A stretch of DNA of 64,000 nucleotides, taken from the NCBI RefSeq assembly GCF_900177405.1, contig NZ_LT840185.1:2347501-2411500 (forward strand), read 5' to 3'. The notes beneath the pieces are model-generated. The model saw nothing but the letters and a program-made list of their open reading frames with translations. It was not told where the DNA came from and searched no databases. Numbering within the stretch: the first letter of the stretch is position 1; the number at the start of each line of letters is the position of its first letter. Shown here one piece after another: positions 9,829 to 62,387 of this stretch. Source of the DNA: Allosphingosinicella indica (lineage in GTDB: Bacteria > Pseudomonadota > Alphaproteobacteria > Sphingomonadales > Sphingomonadaceae). Made by a program: the position numbers and the translations under genes.

Positions 9829-10101
9829 ATGAAGATCGGCTCGATCCTCGCCATCTATGCCCTCTTCTGGGTGATGGGCTTCTTCCTCTGCCTGCCGTTC
9901 GGTGTGCGCACCGACGAGGAGGTGGGCGCGCGCAGCAAGCCCGGTCACGCCGACAGCGCGCCGCACCGCTTCAGCTTCGGCAAGGCGGCACTCCGCGCGA
10001 CGATCCTCTCCGCCGTCGCCTTCGCGCTGTTTTATCTGAACTATCTCTACGGCTGGATCAGCGTCGCCGACATCGACTGGGCCGCGCCGCCGGCGCGTTA
10101 G
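9829..10101 (+). CDS. DUF1467 family small membrane protein
   Basis: This is a 90-residue protein with two predicted transmembrane helices (residues about 5-25 and 60-80) separated by a polar loop. The pattern of an N-terminal ALFWVMGFFLCLPFGVRT followed by a basic-polar loop and a second helix is the DUF1467 signature of alphaproteobacteria. Its function is unknown. It begins 4 bases after rnj and is probably cotranscribed with it. It ends head-to-head in a 4-base overlap with the convergent coiled-coil gene. Confidence 0.85.
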   Translation: MKIGSILAIYALFWVMGFFLCLPFGVRTDEEVGARSKPGHADSAPHRFSFGKAALRATILSAVAFALFYLNYLYGWISVADIDWAAPPAR

Positions 10102-12401
10102 GCGCGCAGGCGCTCGATCGCCTGGGCGAGCGCGACGTAAAGCTTGCCCATGTCTGACGAGAGGATGGTGACGCCGAGCGCCGATCCGTCGCGGTCCGCG
10201 AGCACGCGGCGAATCATCGATTCGAAATCGTGGATGTAGCGGTTCACCTGCTCGCGGAATTCCGGCTCGGTCTCATAGAGCTGCAGCACCTCGCGCGCCT
10301 CGCCCGAATCAAGCAGCCGGACTGCGCGGCGGGTGAAGATGCCGCGATCGCCCTTCAGATAGGCCGCCCAGGCGCTGTCGGTGACGTCGTTGGACAGGAC
10401 CTTGGTTACGTCGATCGCGGTAGAATTGAGCGACTCGATGAGCAGCGCGACGCGGCGTGAAAGCGCGGCCGATTCCTGTTCCTCTCGCGTCTTATGCTCT
10501 TCGTCCATGCGGCGTTCGAGCGCGGCGGCGGTCTCGCTGATTGCGAGCAACTGCCGGGTGAGACGCTCGGACGCGGCGCGCGCCGCGTCGGCGGCGCTTT
10601 CCGCGCTCTTGGCGACATCGTCCATCTGCTGCTGGATCGGGCCGGAAATGGCGGCGGCGATCGCATCGCGGCTCGCATCCGCGAGCTTGGCGGCGCTTTC
10701 GGGGATGACCGCGCCGATTGCCGTGCGCGCGCGCTCGGCCGCTTGACCGGCGGTTTCGCGCACGCGGACCAGCGCTTCGACGAGGCTGGGCCCGGTTTCG
10801 GACGACAATTTGGCGGCGGCGCGGTCTGCTTCCGCTGCGGCTTCGCCCAGCGCGAGGATCTGCGTCTGCGCCGTATCGAGACCTGTACCGAGCCGGGTCA
10901 GCAACGCCTCCAGCACATCCTGCTGTGTCTTGAGGCTTGCTTCCGCCTCGCCCATCCGCATCGCGGCGGCGTCGGCCGAACCCTCGACGGCCTGCACCTG
11001 CGGGAGGATCGCGGTCGCGGCCGCGTTGGTCTGTTCGGCCCGCGCCTCTACCTTCTCCAGCGACGAGGAAATCTTGACGTCGAGCTGCTCGGCGACTGCG
11101 GTAAGCGCCTGCGCCATTTCATGTGCGCGATCGATGAGATCGCCGGCGCGCTCGTGGCCGGTGCCGAGCTCGGTGAACAGCTCCTGCGCGCAGGCGCGCA
11201 CCGTCTGGAAGGAATCGGTGAGGATGGTCGCGCCGGTCGACCCGGATTCGCGCAACGTGTCGAACCGCTCCTCGAGCGATGCCATCTCGCGGGAAAGGCG
11301 ATCCATCAGCGCATGGCTCGCGGCATCCTGCGTTGCGAGATGGCCCGCCAGACCCTGAATTCGGCCGCTGATCGTCTCGAGCCGCTGCGCGAGGTTGCGC
11401 GTCGCTTCCTCACCGGCATGTTCGAGGGCGGCGCGGTTCTGCTCGATCGAGGCGAGCATCGCGGCACCCTGCGCGTCCAGCGCCGAGCGGGTGGTGTCGA
11501 CCGCGTCCGAGGCCTGGGTCATGCTGCCGTCGATCGCCGCGGTCATCGCGGCGGCGGCCTGCTCCATCCGCTCGGACGCCGCGGCGGCGTTGCTCTCGAT
11601 CCGCGCGAGATGCGCGCCGAGCCGCTGCGCCGCGCCGCCGGCGGCTTCGTCCGCCTCGCGGCCGCGCGCGGCGAGCGCGGAGAGCTGCCCTTCGAGCGAC
11701 CCGGCCTGGCTATGCGCCTCGATGCCGACTTCGCGCAGCGCCGTTCCGACCGCGCGCGCCTGTTCCTCGGCGCGGGGCAGATCGTGGAGAAGGACGCCGA
11801 TATCGACCCGCGCGTTCGAGGCGGCCGACTCCAGCGCTTCGGCCTGGCGGTCGAGCGTCTTGGTCTCGCGGGCGAGATAATGGGTGACGCGGCCGAGCCG
11901 GTCGGCGGCTTCGTCGCCGAGCGTCATTAGCCGCTCGGCCTCGCCGGTAAGCTGCGCCTTATTGTCCGCGAGCCGTTGCGCGACGATCGCCAGCACGTTT
12001 TCCAGCGCCGTGCTCTCGCTCCGCATCTCGGCGACCGCCTGGCGGAAGCGCTCGGTCTCGCGGCGCGGCGAGCGGCCGAGGATGATCCACGCGATGCCGA
12101 GCAGGATCAGCGGCGGGCTGACAAGGTTCGCCCAGCCGAGCGCGCTCTCGATCGACGGCGGCGCGGCGCGCCACACCGACCAAGCCGAGACGGCGATCCA
12201 GGCGAGCGCGAGCAGGACGATGATCGCGCCGACGATCGCGGGGCGGCGTGACGGGCGCTCCTCGTCCGGCTCGGCCTCGCTGCCCAGCCATTCGGCGAGC
12301 GTCTGTTCCTCGGGCGCCGATTCGGGCACCGTCGAAACCCCCGCGAAAACCCCATCCCCTTGCGGCTGCTGCGCTTCTGCGCGCGGATACCCCATGCTCA
12401 T
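10098..12401 (-). CDS. Large coiled-coil inner-membrane protein, TipN-like candidate
   Basis: The 767-residue protein has a polar N-terminus, two closely spaced hydrophobic helices (about residues 53-80 and 88-111), then roughly 500 residues of Ala/Glu/Arg/Gln-rich heptad-type sequence typical of long coiled coil. The last 120 residues form a more conserved, non-repetitive domain ending in SSDMGKLYVALAQAIERLR. This architecture matches the Caulobacter polarity factor TipN, but I assign that only tentatively. I use ATG 12401 (GTG 12404 and ATG 12395 are alternatives). It is transcribed divergently from the HPt-like gene at 12483. Confidence 0.75.
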   Translation of the reverse strand: MSMGYPRAEAQQPQGDGVFAGVSTVPESAPEEQTLAEWLGSEAEPDEERPSRRPAIVGAIIVLLALAWIAVSAWSVWRAAPPSIESALGWANLVSPPLILLGIAWIILGRSPRRETERFRQAVAEMRSESTALENVLAIVAQRLADNKAQLTGEAERLMTLGDEAADRLGRVTHYLARETKTLDRQAEALESAASNARVDIGVLLHDLPRAEEQARAVGTALREVGIEAHSQAGSLEGQLSALAARGREADEAAGGAAQRLGAHLARIESNAAAASERMEQAAAAMTAAIDGSMTQASDAVDTTRSALDAQGAAMLASIEQNRAALEHAGEEATRNLAQRLETISGRIQGLAGHLATQDAASHALMDRLSREMASLEERFDTLRESGSTGATILTDSFQTVRACAQELFTELGTGHERAGDLIDRAHEMAQALTAVAEQLDVKISSSLEKVEARAEQTNAAATAILPQVQAVEGSADAAAMRMGEAEASLKTQQDVLEALLTRLGTGLDTAQTQILALGEAAAEADRAAAKLSSETGPSLVEALVRVRETAGQAAERARTAIGAVIPESAAKLADASRDAIAAAISGPIQQQMDDVAKSAESAADAARAASERLTRQLLAISETAAALERRMDEEHKTREEQESAALSRRVALLIESLNSTAIDVTKVLSNDVTDSAWAAYLKGDRGIFTRRAVRLLDSGEAREVLQLYETEPEFREQVNRYIHDFESMIRRVLADRDGSALGVTILSSDMGKLYVALAQAIERLRA

Positions 12402-12482
12402 CACGGGACTGTATCATGTTTGGACGCGGGCGAAAGCTGCGGCGGCAACGGGGTGTTAACGCTCGTCGCCTATGCCGGGCGG

Positions 12483-12791
12483 ATGGTCTATGATCCGGGC
12501 GCCCTCAACGCATCGCTTGCCGCCGCGGTGGGCACCGACGGCGATCTGATGGCCGAGTTGCGCGCCGCGTTCCTCGAAAGCGCCGAGCGGCAGGCGGACC
12601 TGCTGGCCCGCGCGCGCTGCGATGCCAACTGGACGATCGCCGCCTCGCGCCTCAAGAGCGTCGCCGCGAGCTTCGGCGTCACCGGCCTTATGGACCTCGC
12701 CGAAGAGGCGCTGACCGGCGCTCCCAGCGACCCCGTTATCCTCCGCCGGATCCAAGCCGCACTCACCGACTTCCGTGGCAACGCCGCCTAA
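12483..12791 (+). CDS. HPt-like four-helix protein lacking the phospho-histidine
   Basis: This is a 102-residue all-helical protein. The stretch AASRLKSVAASFG (residues 53-65) matches the histidine phosphotransfer signature AHxLKGxAxxxG, but Ser55 stands where the phosphorylated histidine should be, and the following Gly is Ser59. The protein may therefore bind a kinase or receiver without relaying phosphate. The frame extends to 12360, and a GTG at 12453 is possible. I prefer ATG 12483 because the conserved-looking sequence MVYDPGALN begins there. It is followed by the two-domain membrane protein gene. Confidence 0.7.
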   Translation: MVYDPGALNASLAAAVGTDGDLMAELRAAFLESAERQADLLARARCDANWTIAASRLKSVAASFGVTGLMDLAEEALTGAPSDPVILRRIQAALTDFRGNAA

Positions 12792-12854
12792 GCGCTTTGC
12801 AAGAGCCGCGGCAGCGGCTTATCCGGCTCTTCCAACCTTGTTCGGGGAAGACGC

Positions 12855-14063
12855 TTGGCGCTCGCCGCCCTCATTTGTGCCTATCAGGATGCTGCCGGCC
12901 CCGGCGGGCGGCTACGCGCAACCTTGCCGCTCGCGGGACGAACCTTGCTTGAGCGCCAAGCGCGGCTGGCGGCGGCGGCGGGCGCCGATCCCATCCTCGT
13001 GCTGGTCGAGCGGCTGCCGCCCGATCTGATCGCGGCGCTTGACCGGCTGCGCGGCGAAGGCATCTCGATCCGCGTCGCGCGCACCGTCGCCGAGGCCGCG
13101 GAAGCGGTGCATCCGCACGAGCCGCTGCTGCTGATCGCCGACGGGCTGATCGCCGATGCCGAGCATTTCGGCCGGATCGCCAATGCCAGCGGCGCCACCT
13201 TGCTCAGCCGCCCCGACGACGGCGACGAGACGTTCGAGCGGATCGACGCCGATTCGCGCTGGGCGGGGATCGCCAGGCTCGACGGCGCGATGCTGCGGCG
13301 GACGGCGGCGATGCTGGGCGAATGGGATCTCCAGTCGACGCTGCTGCGCCATGCCGTCCAGGCCGACGTGCGGCAGGTCGCGCTGCGCGGCGATTCGGAA
13401 GATGCGCCACTCACGATAGCCCAGCGTGACGCCGATCTGATCGCGATCGAGCAGAAGATCGTCGAAAGCGCCAATGCCGCGCGCGGCGGCTGGGCATCGC
13501 GCTACATCCTCGCGCCGATCGAGCGGCTGGCGACGCGGCTGCTGATGCCGACCCGCGTTACCCCCGATCTGTTGCGCTTCGCCGCGGCGGGGTTGACCAT
13601 CGTCGCGGCGGTCCTGTTCGCGCGCGACTGGCTGTGGGTGGGCGGTGCGGTGATGCTGGCAGCGACGCCGCTCGACGGCGCCGCCGACCGGCTGTCGCTG
13701 CTTCGCATGGAGCAGCCGCGCATCCACGACTGGTGGGCGCAGATCCTGCCCGCGCTCGCCGCCATCGCGCTCGCCGCGCTTGGTTTTTCACTGTCGGCCA
13801 CCTTCGGGTGGGGAAGCCTGCTGCTGGTTGCAGTGACCTTGGCGTTCCTGCTCGCGCTGCACGGCGAAACGCGGGGCGATCCAGTTCCTGCGGCCGAGTG
13901 GCTGGCGGAGCGAAAGGGGATGACGCTCCTCATGCTGCCGTTCGCGCTCACCTGGAACTGGATCGGCGGGCTCGGCGCGCTCGCGCTTTATGCCGCCGCA
14001 TCCTTCTTTTGGGCGCAGCGCGCGGTGCACCGGCCCGCCGCGCCGCCCGCCGACGAGGATTAG
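12855..14063 (+). CDS. Two-domain membrane protein: nucleotidyltransferase-like N-terminus, CDP-alcohol phosphatidyltransferase-like C-terminus
   Basis: It has 402 residues. The N-terminal ~200 residues look like a sugar-nucleotide transferase fold (ALICAYQDAAGPGGRLRATL; LLLIADGLI at 91-99), but the usual Gly-x-Gly-x-Arg loop is not intact. The C-terminal half has about five hydrophobic helices and a partial CDP-alcohol transferase motif at 271-292 (TPLDGAADR…HDWW). Canonical DxxDGxxAR…GxxxDxxxD is incomplete: Thr271 replaces the first Asp and the terminal Asp is lost. Such fusions occur in inositol-phosphate lipid synthesis, but activity here is doubtful. The start is TTG 12855 behind GGGGAAG. 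Confidence 0.65.
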   Translation: MALAALICAYQDAAGPGGRLRATLPLAGRTLLERQARLAAAAGADPILVLVERLPPDLIAALDRLRGEGISIRVARTVAEAAEAVHPHEPLLLIADGLIADAEHFGRIANASGATLLSRPDDGDETFERIDADSRWAGIARLDGAMLRRTAAMLGEWDLQSTLLRHAVQADVRQVALRGDSEDAPLTIAQRDADLIAIEQKIVESANAARGGWASRYILAPIERLATRLLMPTRVTPDLLRFAAAGLTIVAAVLFARDWLWVGGAVMLAATPLDGAADRLSLLRMEQPRIHDWWAQILPALAAIALAALGFSLSATFGWGSLLLVAVTLAFLLALHGETRGDPVPAAEWLAERKGMTLLMLPFALTWNWIGGLGALALYAAASFFWAQRAVHRPAAPPADED

Positions 14064-14098
14064 CAGCGCTTTAACGCTGTTCGCGCTAAGCCTCCCCT

Positions 14099-15157
14099 AT
14101 GTCGGAAGGACCGCCGAACCTGGGTGAGCGCGGAAGCGATGCGGCGCGGCTGCTGGTCGCTGCCGCACGACGCCATGCGGCCGCCGGACGGCAACTCGCC
14201 ATTCCCGAAGCGCTGCGGCTCAGCGAGCAGGAGCGACGCATCGTCGCCGGCCTCGCAGACGCGCTCGGCCGGGCAGTGGAGGACGAGCTTCGGACGGCAT
14301 TGGCGGTGCGCGCCGCCGCGGCCGGTCGCGAGGCGCTGGCCGCCGCGCTTTCGTCAGCGCATGTCGCGATCGCCGGGCCGCTGGTCGATCGATCCGGGTT
14401 CTGGCGCGATGGCGATCTGCTTGCAGTGCTGCTGCGCCGCGTGGAAGAGCATCGCCTCAACCGCGCCGCCGCGTCGGCTGACGATCCGCTCCCCGCGCTC
14501 ATCCGGGACGGCGATGAGGAGATCGCAACCGAAGCGATGGCAGTGCTGATCGCGCGGAGCCGGCGGCTCGATCGTATCGAGGAACCGCTGGTCACCCGCA
14601 CCGAACTTCCAGCGGATATCCAGCATCGTCTGGTCTGGACGGTCGCGGCGGGACTACGGCTCTACATGACGGGGCAACAGGCGCTGCCCGCAGATCTCGC
14701 CGATGCCTGGCTCGCCGAAGAGGCTGCGAACTTTCTCGCGCATTATGACGAGGGCGACACGCTCGATGCCCGCTGCGCGCGGCTGGCGGTGCTGCTCGAT
14801 GCGGCAGGCCGGCTGGACGATGATTTCCTGATCCACGCGCTGGGCGGCGGCAGCTTTGCGCTGTTCCTGGCCGCGATCGCGCTTCGTGCGCGCCTTGCCG
14901 CCAGCGATGCGTGGACGATCCTGTCCGACACCGACGGGCGCGGTGCGCCACTTCTGCTGCGCGCCGCCGGCGTCGGGCGGCATGCCTCTGCTGCGCTGCT
15001 GCTCGCCTTGGCGCGCGAGGAGTCGGCTTTGGCGCCGCAGCTCGACCTCTTCGACCTCGTCGATCCCGATACCGCGCGCGCCGCGCTCCGGCTGTGGCGC
15101 ACCGATCCGGCCTATCGCGCCGCGCTGGCCCGGATGCTGGACCGCGAGGCGGCATGA
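14099..15157 (+). CDS. DUF2336 domain-containing protein
   Basis: This is a 352-residue, largely alpha-helical soluble protein. The middle and C-terminal parts (LPADIQHRLVWTVAAGLRLYM; LFDLVDPDTARAALRLWRTD) fit the alphaproteobacterial DUF2336 family, which resembles tandem helical repeats. The biochemical role is unknown. It has no signal peptide or membrane segment. Its ATGA overlap with the kinase-like gene at 15154 points to a joint role in signalling. Confidence 0.75.
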   Translation: MSEGPPNLGERGSDAARLLVAAARRHAAAGRQLAIPEALRLSEQERRIVAGLADALGRAVEDELRTALAVRAAAAGREALAAALSSAHVAIAGPLVDRSGFWRDGDLLAVLLRRVEEHRLNRAAASADDPLPALIRDGDEEIATEAMAVLIARSRRLDRIEEPLVTRTELPADIQHRLVWTVAAGLRLYMTGQQALPADLADAWLAEEAANFLAHYDEGDTLDARCARLAVLLDAAGRLDDDFLIHALGGGSFALFLAAIALRARLAASDAWTILSDTDGRGAPLLLRAAGVGRHASAALLLALAREESALAPQLDLFDLVDPDTARAALRLWRTDPAYRAALARMLDREAA

Positions 15158-16527
15158 GCGCACTCGAGCAGAGCAACGCCGCGCCGGTCCGCGGCCGTGT
15201 CGATCGCGACGGACGGCTGATCGAGGCCGAACCGATGCTCGAGGCGCTGCACCTCCGCGCCGGCGGCGTGCCCGGCGGGCCGATCGCGGTGCCACAGATC
15301 GCGGCCCTGGTGCGGCTGTCGCGGCGGCTCGGCATCGTCGTCTCGCGCGCGGTCGTCGCGGCGGACGGCGACGACGATCTCGACTTATGGGTGCGCGCCG
15401 ATCCGGGCGATGAGGGCGCCTCGCTTTCCGTGTCCGGCTGGCGGCGCCAGCCCGCGCGGCCGCCTGCCGACGCGCCCCAGCACGAGCGCGACGCTGATTT
15501 CCTCCGCGCCGGCGCGGACTGGATGTGGGAGACAGACGCGCGGCTCAATTTCACTGCCCTGTCCTCCGCCGCGATCGTCGCGTCGGGGCGCCCGACCGCC
15601 GATCTGATCGGCCGCCAGCTCACCCGGCTGTTCCGGCTCGAAGAGGATCGCGACGGCAATCTGCCAATCCTGACCGCGCTCGCCGATCACCGCCGCTTCG
15701 ATCGGCAGGTCGCGATCCTGCGCGGGCCGACGCGCGCGCGCTATCGCCTCGCCGGCATACCGATGATCGACGGGGCAGGGCGCTTCGCGGGCTTCCGCGG
15801 CTCGGCGACCGGCATCGGCGATCCCGACATCCCAGCCAACGACACGCGCGACCCCGATGCGCCGGCATTCGGCGAGCGTCTCGACACGGCGCTGCGAGTT
15901 CCGCTCGACCATATCGTCAGCGCCGCCGAGGCGATGCGCGCGCAGGCGGAAGGCCCGCTCGGCGACGATTATGTTGGCTATGCGGGCGATATCGCCTCGG
16001 CCGGTCGGCACCTCCTCGCGCTGGTCGACGATCTGGTCGATCTCCAGGCGATCGAGCGGACCGATTTCCGCCCGTCGCTGGAAGCGCTCGATCTCGCCGA
16101 TATCGCCCGCCGCGCCGCCGGCCTGCTCGCGGTGCGCGGCGCGGACCGCGGCGTGAAGATCGACACGCCCGGTGAGGACGAGCAGGCGCCGGCGATCGGC
16201 GAGTTCCGCCGCACGCTGCAAATTCTCACCAATCTCGTCGCCAACGCGGTCCGCTATTCGCCCGAAGGCGCGATGGTCTGGATCCGCACCGAGCGCGAAG
16301 GCGACATCGTCGCCGTCGTCGTCGCCGATCAGGGCAAGGGCATCGCGCCCGACGATCACGAGCGCATCTTCCACAAGTTCGAGCGGGTCGATCCCGCCGA
16401 ACCGGGCGGCACCGGCCTCGGCCTCTACATCGCCCGCCGACTCGCCCGCGCGATGGGCGGCGACATCATCGTCGACAGCGCGCCGGGGCAGGGCGCGCGC
16501 TTCACCCTGACGCTCCCGGCAGCTTAA
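15154..16527 (+). CDS. PAS-domain sensor kinase-like protein without the H-box histidine
   Basis: This is a 457-residue soluble protein. A PAS-like domain lies at about 112-225 (DFLRAGADWMWETDARL), a dimerisation helix pair at 238-300 and a HATPase_c domain at 345-457. The ATP-binding boxes look intact: NLVANAVRYSP (N-box), DQGKG (392-396), FHKFER and GGTGLGLYI. In the H-box the expected HELRTPL reads TALRVPL (245-251), so Thr245 replaces the phospho-accepting histidine. No membrane segment is visible. It may be a pseudokinase or an ATP-dependent scaffold. It overlaps the DUF2336 gene by 4 bases. Confidence 0.8.
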   Translation: MSALEQSNAAPVRGRVDRDGRLIEAEPMLEALHLRAGGVPGGPIAVPQIAALVRLSRRLGIVVSRAVVAADGDDDLDLWVRADPGDEGASLSVSGWRRQPARPPADAPQHERDADFLRAGADWMWETDARLNFTALSSAAIVASGRPTADLIGRQLTRLFRLEEDRDGNLPILTALADHRRFDRQVAILRGPTRARYRLAGIPMIDGAGRFAGFRGSATGIGDPDIPANDTRDPDAPAFGERLDTALRVPLDHIVSAAEAMRAQAEGPLGDDYVGYAGDIASAGRHLLALVDDLVDLQAIERTDFRPSLEALDLADIARRAAGLLAVRGADRGVKIDTPGEDEQAPAIGEFRRTLQILTNLVANAVRYSPEGAMVWIRTEREGDIVAVVVADQGKGIAPDDHERIFHKFERVDPAEPGGTGLGLYIARRLARAMGGDIIVDSAPGQGARFTLTLPAA

Positions 16528-60020: not shown

Positions 60021-62387
60021 ATGGGTTCGGTCGAAATCTCGCGCCAGGCGCTCGGCATCATCGCCCTTGTCGCCGGCGTCTGGCTGGCGATCGCGCTGTT
60101 CCTGTCGCTCGCCGGGGCGCGCCGACTGCGCAGCGGTTCCGCGGTGGCAGACGAGGGGCGGCGCGCAAGGGCACTGCTCGACGCGGGGCCCGCAATCCCG
60201 GTGATCGTCGCGCCCGGCGGTGAGATCGAAGCGGACGCCCGCCTCGCCGACATTCTCGGCCTTTCCTATACGCCCTCCACCTTGCAGTCGCTTGCCGACA
60301 GCGATGCAGGCCTCGATCCGGGCGATGCCGAGCGGTTGCGCGAAGCGGTGGCGGGTGCCGCACGGGCCGGTGGCGCCTTCTCGCTTCACGTCGGCGTAAA
60401 CGGATCGGGCCGCCGTTTTCGGGTGGAGGGCGCGCCCGCGCCGCGCCCATGGAAGTCCGGCACCACCTTGCTCTGGTTGATCGACGCCACCGAAAGCGAA
60501 GTGCGACGCGCCGACCTGGAGGGCGAGGGCGAGCGGCTTTCGACCGCGCTCGATTCCCTTTCCGCGCTCATCGAGGCCGCGCCCTTCCCGATGTGGCACC
60601 GCGGACCGGACCTTCGCCTCGCGATGGTCAACAGCGCCTATGTCGCGGCCGTGGAAGGCGGCGATGCTCTTTCGGTGGTCACCTCGGGCATCGAACTGGT
60701 CGACGAAGGCGAGGGCGGCAGCCCGCTTAGCCAGGCAGAGGCGGTGCGCGAGCAAAGCGAGGTCGTGGCCCGTACCGTGCCCGCCACCATCGCCGGCGAG
60801 CGCCGGACGATGCGCGTGGTCGAGGTGCCGCTCAGCGACGCCGGCGTTGCGGGCTATGCGATCGACGTCGAGGATCGCGAGCAGGCGCGCGCCGAGCTTG
60901 CCCGCTTCGTCGCCGCGCAGCGCGACATGCTCGACAGGCTTTCCGCGGGCGTCGCGCATTTCGGGCGCGACCGGACGCTGATCTTCTTCAATCAGCCGTT
61001 CGCGCGGCTGTTTGCGCTGCGCAGCGACTTCCTGGCCGACGAGCCCGAATTCAACCGCGTGCTCGATGCGATGCGCGAACAAGCGCACCTGCCCGAAGTT
61101 CGCGACTATCCCGCGTGGCGCGAAGAGCGCGGCGGCTGGTTCATCGCCGGCCTCGCCGCCGAGGAAGAGGATTGGCTGCTCCCGAGCGGCAAGCACCTGC
61201 GCGTCGTCGCGCAGCCGCTGCCCGACGGCGGTCTGCTGCTGATCTTCGAGGACCGCACCGAGCAGATTCGCCTCGCATCGGCGCGTGACACGTTGCTGCG
61301 GGTGCGGACGGCGACCTTCGACAATTTGTTCGAGGCGATCGGCGTGTTCGCTTCGGACGGGCGGTTGCACCTCTGGAACAACCGTTTCCGCAATCTTTGG
61401 GCGTTCGAGGAGGAACAGCTTTCCGCGCATCCGCGGATCGACGCGCTCGTCCCGCACATCGCCGGCAAGCTCAAGAATCCGGGCCACGCCGCGCTGGTGC
61501 GCGAGCTGGTGCGCAGCGCGACCGTCGAACGCAAGCAGCGCAGCGGCCGGGTCAGCCTGCTCGACGGATCGGATTTCGAGTTTGCCGCGGTGCCGCTGCC
61601 CGACGGCAACGCGCTCTTCACCATGCTCGACGTGACCGACAGCCGCCGGATCGAGGCTGCGCTGCGCGAGCGGGCGGAGGCACTGGAGGAAGCGGACAAG
61701 CTCAAGACCGCCTTCGTCTCCAACATGAGCTATGAGCTCAGAACGCCGCTCACCTCGATCGCCGGCTTCGCCGAGATGCTGGAGGGTGGCTATGCCGGCA
61801 AGCTCGAAGCCCCCGCGACAGAATATGTCGCCGCGATCCTCGATTCGGTGAACCGGCTCGGCGTGCTGATCGACGACGTGCTCGATCTGACGCAGAGCGA
61901 CAGCGGCAGCCTGATGCTGAGCGAGGATGAGATCGATCTCGCCGCGCTGTGCGAGGAAGCGGCGGAAGCGGTGCAGGAGGCCGCCGCCGCCAAGGGCATC
62001 GATCTCGCGCTCGACATCGCGCCCTCGGCCGGCAGCGTGATCGGCGATCGGCGGCGGCTGCGCCAGGCGGTCGATCATGTCGTCAAGAATGCGGTCGACT
62101 ACACCCATGGCGGCGGCAGGGTGCTGCTCCACGCCAGCGGCGATGCGTCGGAAGCGGTGATCGCCGTGTCCGACAACGGTGCCGGCATCGCGCCGTTCGA
62201 GCAGGCCCGCGTGTTCGATCGCTTCCACCGCACTGCGGCGGCGCGGGGCGGCGATGGCGGCTCGCTCGGCCTCGGCTTGCCGCTCGCCCGCCAGTTCATC
62301 GAGGCGCACGGCGGCACCATCGCTTTGGTCTCCGAAGTGGGCGAGGGCACGACCGTCACGATCCACTTGCCGCGCCCCTTGCTGTGA
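60021..62387 (+). CDS. divL: Cell-cycle pseudokinase DivL
   Basis: It has 788 residues. After one N-terminal transmembrane helix (LGIIALVAGVWLAIALFLSL), several PAS-like regions extend to about 550. Then come the DHp and HATPase domains. The H-box reads SYELRTPLTSIAGFAEML: Tyr571 stands where a histidine kinase has His. This substitution defines DivL, which in Caulobacter activates CckA and thereby CtrA. ATP-binding boxes are present (KNAVDYTHG; DNGAGI; SLGLGLPLAR). I choose ATG 60021. tsaE overlaps its stop (GTGA). Confidence 0.9.
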   Translation: MGSVEISRQALGIIALVAGVWLAIALFLSLAGARRLRSGSAVADEGRRARALLDAGPAIPVIVAPGGEIEADARLADILGLSYTPSTLQSLADSDAGLDPGDAERLREAVAGAARAGGAFSLHVGVNGSGRRFRVEGAPAPRPWKSGTTLLWLIDATESEVRRADLEGEGERLSTALDSLSALIEAAPFPMWHRGPDLRLAMVNSAYVAAVEGGDALSVVTSGIELVDEGEGGSPLSQAEAVREQSEVVARTVPATIAGERRTMRVVEVPLSDAGVAGYAIDVEDREQARAELARFVAAQRDMLDRLSAGVAHFGRDRTLIFFNQPFARLFALRSDFLADEPEFNRVLDAMREQAHLPEVRDYPAWREERGGWFIAGLAAEEEDWLLPSGKHLRVVAQPLPDGGLLLIFEDRTEQIRLASARDTLLRVRTATFDNLFEAIGVFASDGRLHLWNNRFRNLWAFEEEQLSAHPRIDALVPHIAGKLKNPGHAALVRELVRSATVERKQRSGRVSLLDGSDFEFAAVPLPDGNALFTMLDVTDSRRIEAALRERAEALEEADKLKTAFVSNMSYELRTPLTSIAGFAEMLEGGYAGKLEAPATEYVAAILDSVNRLGVLIDDVLDLTQSDSGSLMLSEDEIDLAALCEEAAEAVQEAAAAKGIDLALDIAPSAGSVIGDRRRLRQAVDHVVKNAVDYTHGGGRVLLHASGDASEAVIAVSDNGAGIAPFEQARVFDRFHRTAAARGGDGGSLGLGLPLARQFIEAHGGTIALVSEVGEGTTVTIHLPRPLL

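Follow-up and report, generated by a model that had tools for sequence, protein, structure and literature searches.

Closest described systems

In the split kinase CheA3/CheA4 of Rhodobacter sphaeroides, one protein provides the ATP domain and the other carries the phosphorylated His. ChpT is a phosphotransfer dimer. DivL of Caulobacter has a Tyr at the His site and binds TNP-ATP weakly (57 uM; PMC4211667). In Sphingomonadales, the DivJ-PleC-DivK system is reported as degenerated or lost (PMC2877005). The polar ring proteins GPR and RgsE are described, in PMC8262873 and PMC7327166, as having two N-terminal membrane helices followed by long apolipoprotein-like helices. Literature searches on DUF2336, on SpbR with Caulobacter and PopZ, and on TipN, the growth pole ring and RgsE jointly found nothing, and a search on sphingomonad pseudokinases gave, by titles and the beginning of abstracts, nothing on the arrangement of the two kinase homologues (HK-A and HK-B) considered here. 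The gene block to which HK-A belongs may well be, although with a little less than an even chance, the remnant of a kinase-HPt-response-regulator relay on a polar-ring-type scaffold, HK-A being in that case the ATP half of a split kinase.

Gene content and conservation of the block

The window, i.e., the whole stretch of 64,000 nucleotides that was analysed, contains the five genes described by a first-pass annotation (Table 1), including the 4 bases (ATGA, 15154-15157) shared by the DUF2336 and HK-A genes. These genes had been proposed to form a module, and the conservation of their neighbourhood supports this proposal. Indeed, 60 of 80 named loci, among the matches listed, show the complete order CC(-)|HPt-NTC-DUF2336-HK, which, like the lack of His in the kinase and HPt rows, goes beyond chance; the 80 loci were kept from at least 127 matches of an HPt-based search, every one of them holds HPt by construction, the gene-order counts are conditional on HPt, and the HK, NTC and DUF2336 thresholds behind locus and row counts were chosen by the analysts. 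The gene order is kept across Sphingomonas, Sphingobium, Novosphingobium and the Erythrobacter group. Two genomes (G008 and G019) retain CC and NTC, HPt, DUF2336 and HK-A being gone; therefore, the loss is not that of the whole locus. HPt was not found in two other genomes (G012 and G035), though both keep HK-A.

Table 1. Features of the gene block and the paralogue of its kinase homologue (positions in the window unless a contig is given)
Feature	Position	Strand	Description
DUF1467 gene	9829-10101		between rnj and CC; absent from the list of the first-pass annotation
CC	10098-12404	-	768 aa, membrane-anchored coiled-coil protein
HPt' (HPt-like)	12483-12791	+	102 aa, counted from the ATG common to its relatives; HPt fold, Ser55 at the His site
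NTC	12855-14063	+	402 aa, nucleotidyltransferase-like and CDP-alcohol-phosphotransferase-like membrane protein; IPCT-DIPPS fold without catalytic motif
DUF2336 protein	14099-15157	+	352 aa, PF10098 94.8 bits (cut-off 34.6)
HK-A (module kinase)	15154-16527	+	457 aa, PAS-DHp-CA histidine-kinase homologue, HATPase_c 100.7 bits
Thr245 codon of HK-A	15886-15888	+	replaces the phospho-acceptor His, context LDTALRVPL
HK-B	G000:C1:2488138-2489760	-	outside the window; paralogue of HK-A

The coiled-coil protein and the DUF2336 protein

CC has two N-terminal hydrophobic segments (residues about 52-81 and 90-112). Its C-terminal domain, about 120 aa long, is near-invariant and occurs in 68 of the 190 alphaproteobacterial genomes sampled, three of the 68 within Sphingomonadaceae. 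The match of CC to PF01442 (E 3.9e-4) is below the cut-off, and, among four CC homologues, two match this family below the cut-off and two give no match. The likeness of CC to GPR, RgsE and TipN is a putative one of layout, as described for GPR/RgsE; in size, GPR and RgsE comprise about 2,100 aa versus 768 aa for CC.

Like SpbR of Caulobacter, the DUF2336 protein has a domain of the DUF2336 type that the SpbR model matches, but its gene, unlike that of SpbR, adjoins a kinase gene. It scores 69.9 bits with the NCBIfam SpbR model NF052659, whose cut-off is 400, and was ruled out as SpbR proper on this score. A link with polarity, suggested in the first-pass annotation, finds some support in the putative GPR/RgsE-type layout of CC and in the SpbR match, though the latter is far below the cut-off.

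A kinase homologue with a lost His and a kept ATP site

None of the 93 in-family HK-A rows has a His at the phospho-acceptor site (91 distinct rows, as two loci, L035/L070 and L043/L069, are counted twice in row totals). The residues seen there are Pro (53/93), Lys (9/93), Thr or Ser (3/93), Arg, Gln, Ala, Glu or Asp. Residues N360, N364, D392, G394, G396, G421 and G423 are kept in 92 of the 92 rows that reach them, the ATP-binding N, G1 and G2 boxes are present, and HATPase_c is matched in 11 of 11. A shortened HK-A is found in G030, a member of genus g6.

In a tree including 27 hand-picked in-family kinase rows, HK-A and His-bearing kinases form one clade (100/99). Eight of the nine His-bearing kinases shown adjoin DUF2336; L065, one of the nine rows considered as linked, lies on a contig of 3,751 bases showing no DUF2336. 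This comparison leaves out 21 kinase sequences from G000 and G044, excluded by hand as weak or partial matches and including two duplicates (L149 and L164) and some of the HisKA type (e.g., L153). Orthologues with the canonical His, regarded in the first-pass annotation as evidence against a module, do occur in the basal G032 and beyond the family, but in no in-family row, which dates the loss and does not disprove the module. The question of whether Ser55 of HPt' and Thr245 of HK-A are conserved as such is answered in the negative because the residue at both His sites varies, and a conserved Ser or Thr as substitute acceptor was ruled out by this free variation.

HK-A is, like DivL, a His-less PAS-DHp-CA protein of an alphaproteobacterium. 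However, DivL combines Tyr at the site with weak ATP binding, whereas HK-A combines a variable residue with intact ATP boxes, and the tree separates HK-A from the Tyr-type proteins that G000 and G044 encode. The identification of HK-A as DivL was ruled out by residue and tree. A separate Tyr-type protein (MSYELRTPL) is encoded elsewhere in the window, at position 61731.

The HPt-like protein and the missing receiver

A His is also found in none of the 103 HPt rows (101 distinct), in which the site is occupied by Met, Leu, Trp, Ser, Gln, Ala, Glu or Tyr, while an RCDxNW motif is invariant among HPt' relatives. HPt' is predicted to fold as a helix bundle (pLDDT 89.9), and PDB ranks 1-10 are all HPt proteins, with Foldseek E values no better than 0.08 and further helix bundles close behind. 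The Pfam Hpt model is matched at E<=0.01 by 25 of 46 members, the window protein itself staying below the cut-off. HPt' is like ShpA and other HPt proteins in its helix-bundle fold (TM about 0.7 to 2ooc), but differs from them by the missing His.

In the outgroup, eight HPts were found that are divergent to a CC homologue, and each of them has His. Among 17 CC-homologue loci inspected, HPt was recognised in five (L184, L201, L204, L205 and L206), of which two were identified by eye, but in none of the remaining 12; the HPt profile (E<=0.1) matched 6 of 34 genomes, and L217 and L218, unconvincing as HPts, were left out. A receiver adjoins the outgroup HPt in four of the five cases checked. It is encoded by 20 of the 24 outgroup genomes, and was found in none of the 35 sphingomonads other than G032. 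The phosphorelay has evidently lost its His residues and its regulator in Sphingomonadaceae (G032 apart), and we infer that the three components (kinase, HPt and receiver) were originally links of a single chain.

HK-B, a paralogue with the reciprocal loss

HK-A and HK-B align over 325 columns with a probability of 99.5. The His of HK-B is conserved in 43 of 43 sequences, and HisKA is matched in 18 of 18 and HATPase_c in 0 of 18, i.e., no ATPase domain is recognised. The loss of the His and that of the ATP domain are therefore complementary in the co-occurring HK-A and HK-B.

Over 249 genomes, with HK-A taken as absent above E 1e-60, 200 have both proteins, 33 neither, 15 HK-B only and a single one, 73% complete, HK-A only. 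When the 21 genomes less than 95% complete are left out, the remaining 228 genomes comprise 189 with both, 29 with neither, 10 with HK-B only and none with HK-A only; the scoring used the best six and five first-look candidates per genome, some absences may be misses, and the Fisher test applied to this co-occurrence ignores phylogeny. HK-A without an HK-B match was encountered in the incomplete genomes G479 (73%) and G021 (82%). Four of the 10 HK-B-only genomes belong to genus g6, including G030. Absence of both proteins was seen in 14 genera, and in three of these (g1, g225 and g231) other members have both.

Sphingopyxis-type loci have HK-B and not HK-A. In L105, HK-B was found at most about 2 kb away from HPt, and each of the 10 further loci of this type that were examined also contains HK-B; these 11 are all of the 13 CC-HPt-only loci except L072 and L131. 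So HK-B can do without HK-A or finds another kinase. Two genomes, G032 and G044, carry HK-B-like proteins (L262 and L263), with HisKA and without a HATPase_c match, and also a His-bearing HK-A relative (L064 and L060).

With the rnj distances removed, the HK-A and HK-B distances correlate at 0.84 over 20 genomes and at 0.73 within genus. The mirror-tree was nevertheless dropped as decisive evidence because the within-genus values of HK-A/NTC (0.69) and CC/NTC (0.73) are similarly high, making it unspecific; the overlapping neighbours HK-A and DUF2336 give 0.18.

A putative split histidine kinase and its alternatives

As the half of a split histidine kinase that binds ATP, HK-A would dimerise with HK-B and phosphorylate the HK-B His in trans, and HPt' and the DUF2336 protein would be binding adaptors that place or gate the pair on the CC scaffold. 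The history behind it is put forward tentatively from comparison of sequences: a polar-scaffold relay would have been dismantled and its kinase rebuilt as a split enzyme requiring both genes, through reciprocal decay of two paralogues (the ATP domain lost from one and the His from the other), the His-less HPt becoming an adaptor. The proposed division of ATP site and His between two proteins is the same as in CheA3/CheA4, but the latter have the CheA architecture, whereas HK-A and HK-B are PAS-HisKA-type paralogues, one of which lies in a scaffold locus.

The first-pass annotation favoured binding rather than phosphotransfer, and a module of this kind, in which HK-A, HPt' and the DUF2336 protein signal by binding only as a DivL-like pseudokinase system, is a real but rather doubtful possibility. 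HK-A would then use ATP to switch its conformation, or use its dimer face to sense a partner, in neither case driving phosphotransfer. The His is indeed gone from both relay proteins, the receiver was not found in sphingomonads other than G032, and DivL is, according to PMC4211667, an experimentally shown pseudo-kinase of the same fold that senses a phosphorylated regulator. However, the intact ATP boxes of HK-A contrast with the weak TNP-ATP binding of DivL, and binding alone leaves the co-occurrence of HK-A and HK-B unexplained. For the kinase, the earlier view may be only half right, as its ATP motifs are near-invariant and the kinase itself is evolutionarily tied to HK-B.

The co-loss of HK-A and HK-B is also compatible with two proteins that act in one pathway without direct contact. 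In this reading, which appears unlikely, HK-B would be a ChpT-like phosphotransfer dimer fed by another kinase, and the co-loss would reflect the common pathway. HK-B without HK-A, in 10 of the 228 genomes and in Sphingopyxis-type loci, speaks for this explanation and against the split kinase, and the HK-B-like proteins of G032 and G044 coexist with a His-bearing HK-A relative. Conversely, the asymmetry in the same 228 genomes, at least 95% complete, where HK-B may be alone but HK-A never is, is as expected of an ATP-donating half and argues for the split kinase.

That HK-A has a different acceptor residue (Thr, Ser or Lys) at this site would agree with Thr in the window and with the few Thr, Ser and Lys rows, but is highly improbable given the free variation of the site and the numerous Pro rows. 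Just as improbable is a block of decaying genes under no selection, which would account for the fast divergence of DUF2336 and NTC and the loss of block genes in several genera, but is contradicted by open frames and near-invariant motifs family-wide.

If the split-kinase reading is true, the pair is a candidate signalling device of the Sphingomonadales' own, reached by a stepwise route from a two-component relay to a heteromeric kinase with binding adaptors, of which G032 and G044 may be living intermediates. An annotation of HK-A or HK-B by itself as sensor kinase may be misleading.

The CDP-alcohol-phosphotransferase-like protein

NTC has the same full-length fold as IPCT-DIPPS of Archaeoglobus (PDB 4mnd, Foldseek E 5.7e-11), but DxxDGxxAR, from the full motif DxxDGxxAR...G...D...D, is missing in all 47 NTC rows. 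As noticed in the first-pass annotation, three proteins of the block have lost their key residues, the HPt, the kinase and the CDP-alcohol transferase all being without catalytic residues. Two of 47 NTC rows have an Asp at position 274 (numbering of the NTC protein encoded in the window), and a partial LDG is seen in Sphingomonas rows. DxxDGxxAR, which is the first motif half, is carried by the syntenic G028 gene and by five of seven order-level fused homologues.

Conservation of the gene block

The five signalling-type genes that the first-pass annotation placed between rnj and an S41 lipoprotein gene are present as described. They encode a membrane coiled-coil protein (CC), an HPt-like protein without His (HPt'), a nucleotidyltransferase-/CDP-alcohol-transferase-like membrane protein (NTC), a DUF2336 (PF10098) protein and a kinase-like protein (HK-A). 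The kinase was used as query against 60 relatives before retrieval of loci, and named genomes were scanned with an HPt profile, keeping the best 80 of 127 loci. The recurrent order is rnj-DUF1467-CC(-)-HPt-NTC-DUF2336-HK-gltA. The proposed conservation of neighbourhood holds, as all five genes stand in order in 60 of these best 80 of 127 loci, while 13 carry only CC and HPt (11 named Sphingopyxis, L128, and L072 of Sphingobium nicotianae), three lack a DUF2336 match, three are interrupted by contig ends and one has a frame artefact, all these counts being conditional on HPt presence because the HPt was the bait. Among the relatives, G009 and G025 have the HPt at another place in the genome, and the search gave no HPt for G012 or G035.

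Coordinates of the block genes, kinases and neighbouring features
Feature	Location	Remarks
DUF1467 gene	window 9829-10101	between rnj and CC
HPt-like gene	window, best start 12483	Ser at the His site, number 55 from that start
HK-A gene	window, start 15154	Thr at the His site, number 245
Tyr-type kinase homologue	window, codon at 61731; HK domain about 61710-62372	MSYELRTPL; separate from the block
HK-B	genome G000, C1:2488138-2489760	outside the window; homologue of the L105 protein
HK-B-type protein, 565 aa	Sphingopyxis locus L105:10455-12149	about 2 kb from HPt; HisKA, HELRSPLNAI
SixA-like protein	outgroup locus L184:5300-5839	between HPt and receiver

Lost phospho-acceptors and retained ATP site

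In 93 HK-A rows (91 distinct) from the family Sphingomonadaceae, the phospho-acceptor site is never His (P 53, R 14, K 9, Q 8, A 4, T 2, and S, E and D once each), and the following Glu is likewise gone. The ATP-site residues N360, N364, D392, G394, G396, G421 and G423 are retained in all 92 rows reaching them. Across 103 HPt rows (101 distinct), the His site holds M, L, W, S, Q, A, E or Y, and R45, C46, D47, N49, W50 and R56 are invariant. The idea that Ser55 and Thr245 are themselves conserved thus fails: the loss is conserved, the replacement is not.

The ten best PDB matches of the HPt' model (pLDDT 89.9) are all HPt proteins, including ShpA (2ooc, TM about 0.7), at weak E-values of 0.08 and up and with unrelated helix bundles ranking next. 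The NTC model (pLDDT 90.6) matches the Archaeoglobus IPCT-DIPPS structure 4mnd along its length (E 5.7e-11). The motif half DxxDGxxAR occurs in none of 47 NTC rows; LDGVDGKLAR is found in 5/7 fused order-level homologues (exceptions L222 and L225) and in the gene at NTC's place in the in-family genome G028. No fused protein matched the whole CDP-alcohol-transferase motif, with two later Asp in the usual places, which was matched only in stand-alone enzymes adjoining them; the outgroup fusions may therefore be variants themselves. At the G028 locus (L231), the LDGVDGKLAR-type NTC lies beside CC and an additional CDP-alcohol transferase that stands alone, and HPt, DUF2336 and kinase have no match.

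A reciprocal paralogue, HK-B

The 565-aa HisKA protein of L105 has no ATPase domain match, and its relatives lie within the CC-HPt locus in all ten other Sphingopyxis-type loci examined. HK-B keeps His and the next Glu in 43/43 sequences, including the distant ones of G030, G032 and G044. Pfam recognises HisKA in 18/18 HK-B proteins and HATPase_c in 0/18, a pattern also seen in the homologues of those three genomes, whereas HK-A has HATPase_c in 11/11 with weak HisKA. Judging from an alignment spanning PAS, DHp and CA (325 columns, probability 99.5), the two are paralogues.

Among 249 family genomes, 200 have both, 33 neither, 15 only HK-B and one only HK-A (G479, 73% complete), single absences being uncertain since only the top 6 and top 5 candidates per genome were scored. 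For the 228 genomes at least 95% complete, the numbers are 189, 29, 10 and 0 (Fisher p about 1e-28, treating genomes as independent of phylogeny). Genus g6 supplies four of these ten HK-B-only genomes; in its member G030, an NTC-DUF2336-HK row includes a diverged HK-A of reduced length. Among the 60 relatives, G021 (82% complete) carries HK-A, and HK-B gave no match there. Genomes with neither kinase fall into 14 genera, of which three also include genomes with both, so several losses occurred. The absences in G008, G019 and G028 were repeated in deeper searches; in G008 (L229) and G019 (L230), CC and NTC stay between rnj and gltA, and HPt, DUF2336 and HK-A are gone. HK-A and HK-B distances correlate beyond rnj (0.84 in 20 genomes, 0.73 within the genus), as support and not proof, because the correlations for CC/NTC and HK-A/NTC are as high and that for HK-A/DUF2336 is only 0.18.

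Possible mechanism

The losses, the retained ATP site, the gene order and the co-occurrence are observations. Tentatively, they suggest a split kinase, for which CheA3/CheA4 is a precedent: HK-A would supply the ATP domain of a heterodimer formed with HK-B, and HPt' and DUF2336 would bind the pair and position it on CC. Signalling by HK-A's module through binding only, as first proposed, is somewhat less likely, given the intact ATP boxes and the association with HK-B. That both kinases merely share a pathway without contact is improbable. The best-known pseudokinase, DivL, binds ATP weakly and displayed no autokinase activity (PMC4211667). The intact ATP boxes of HK-A and its tie to HK-B suggest that it works otherwise. 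The Tyr-type homologue within the window is probably DivL.

Ancestry

Eight loci beyond the core family (L059-L064, L067, L068) have a His-box kinase adjoining DUF2336. In the tree, the kinases of these loci and of L065 group with 27 selected His-less kinases (support 100/99), apart from 14 others, which include the Tyr-type (DivL-like) proteins found in G000 and G044; only two genomes supplied the comparison kinases. HPts with canonical His, such as AHSLKGSARGVGA, and the CC homologue are divergently transcribed and separated by no more than one or two small genes in four genomes of the order (L184, L226, L227, L228) and four of the class (L201, L204, L205, L206), His being present in 8/8 found; 12 of 17 CC-homologue loci listed showed no such divergent HPt. 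Orthologues with canonical His, named in advance as refuting evidence, exist outside the core family and in the basal genome G032, and none occurs in the 93 kinase or 103 HPt rows from within the family, a pattern that dates the loss rather than speaking against the module.

A response-regulator-type receiver adjoins the His-bearing HPt in G041, G052, G057 and G032, not in G045. Of 24 outgroup genomes, 20 have it at E <= 5.4e-74 (exceptions G037, G054, G059, and G047 with only 4.7e-19). Within the family, G032 matches at 4.9e-56, and the other 35 members give no match at E <= 1e-12. In G032, a genome with frame breaks that is 86% complete, His-bearing HPt, receiver, NTC, DUF2336 and His-bearing kinase all lie within 10 kb. 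Kinase, HPt and regulator parts therefore existed, and we infer that they once formed one chain; by this distribution, both His residues and the receiver have disappeared from the core family. By eye, the SixA-like protein of L184 is of phosphohistidine phosphatase type with a signal-like start, and flagellar hook-associated-type genes lie between NTC and DUF2336 in G032 (L186). DUF2336 has 4-9 copies in 22/24 outgroups (G036-G059, other families of the order) and 0-2 matches per family genome, G032 apart.

The CC protein

CC has two hydrophobic stretches near the N-terminus. Its helices are weakly similar to PF01442, homologues L228 (E 1.5e-14) and L184 (3.3e-10) both falling below the cut-off and L195 and L199 giving no match. 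The layout may be that reported for GPR and RgsE (PMC8262873, PMC7327166), and TipN is described as analogous to GPR in one paper; CC might be identical with one of the three. The C-terminal domain of CC is near-invariant and recurs in 68/190 sampled alphaproteobacteria, in reading frames that range in length from 266 to 2491 codons.
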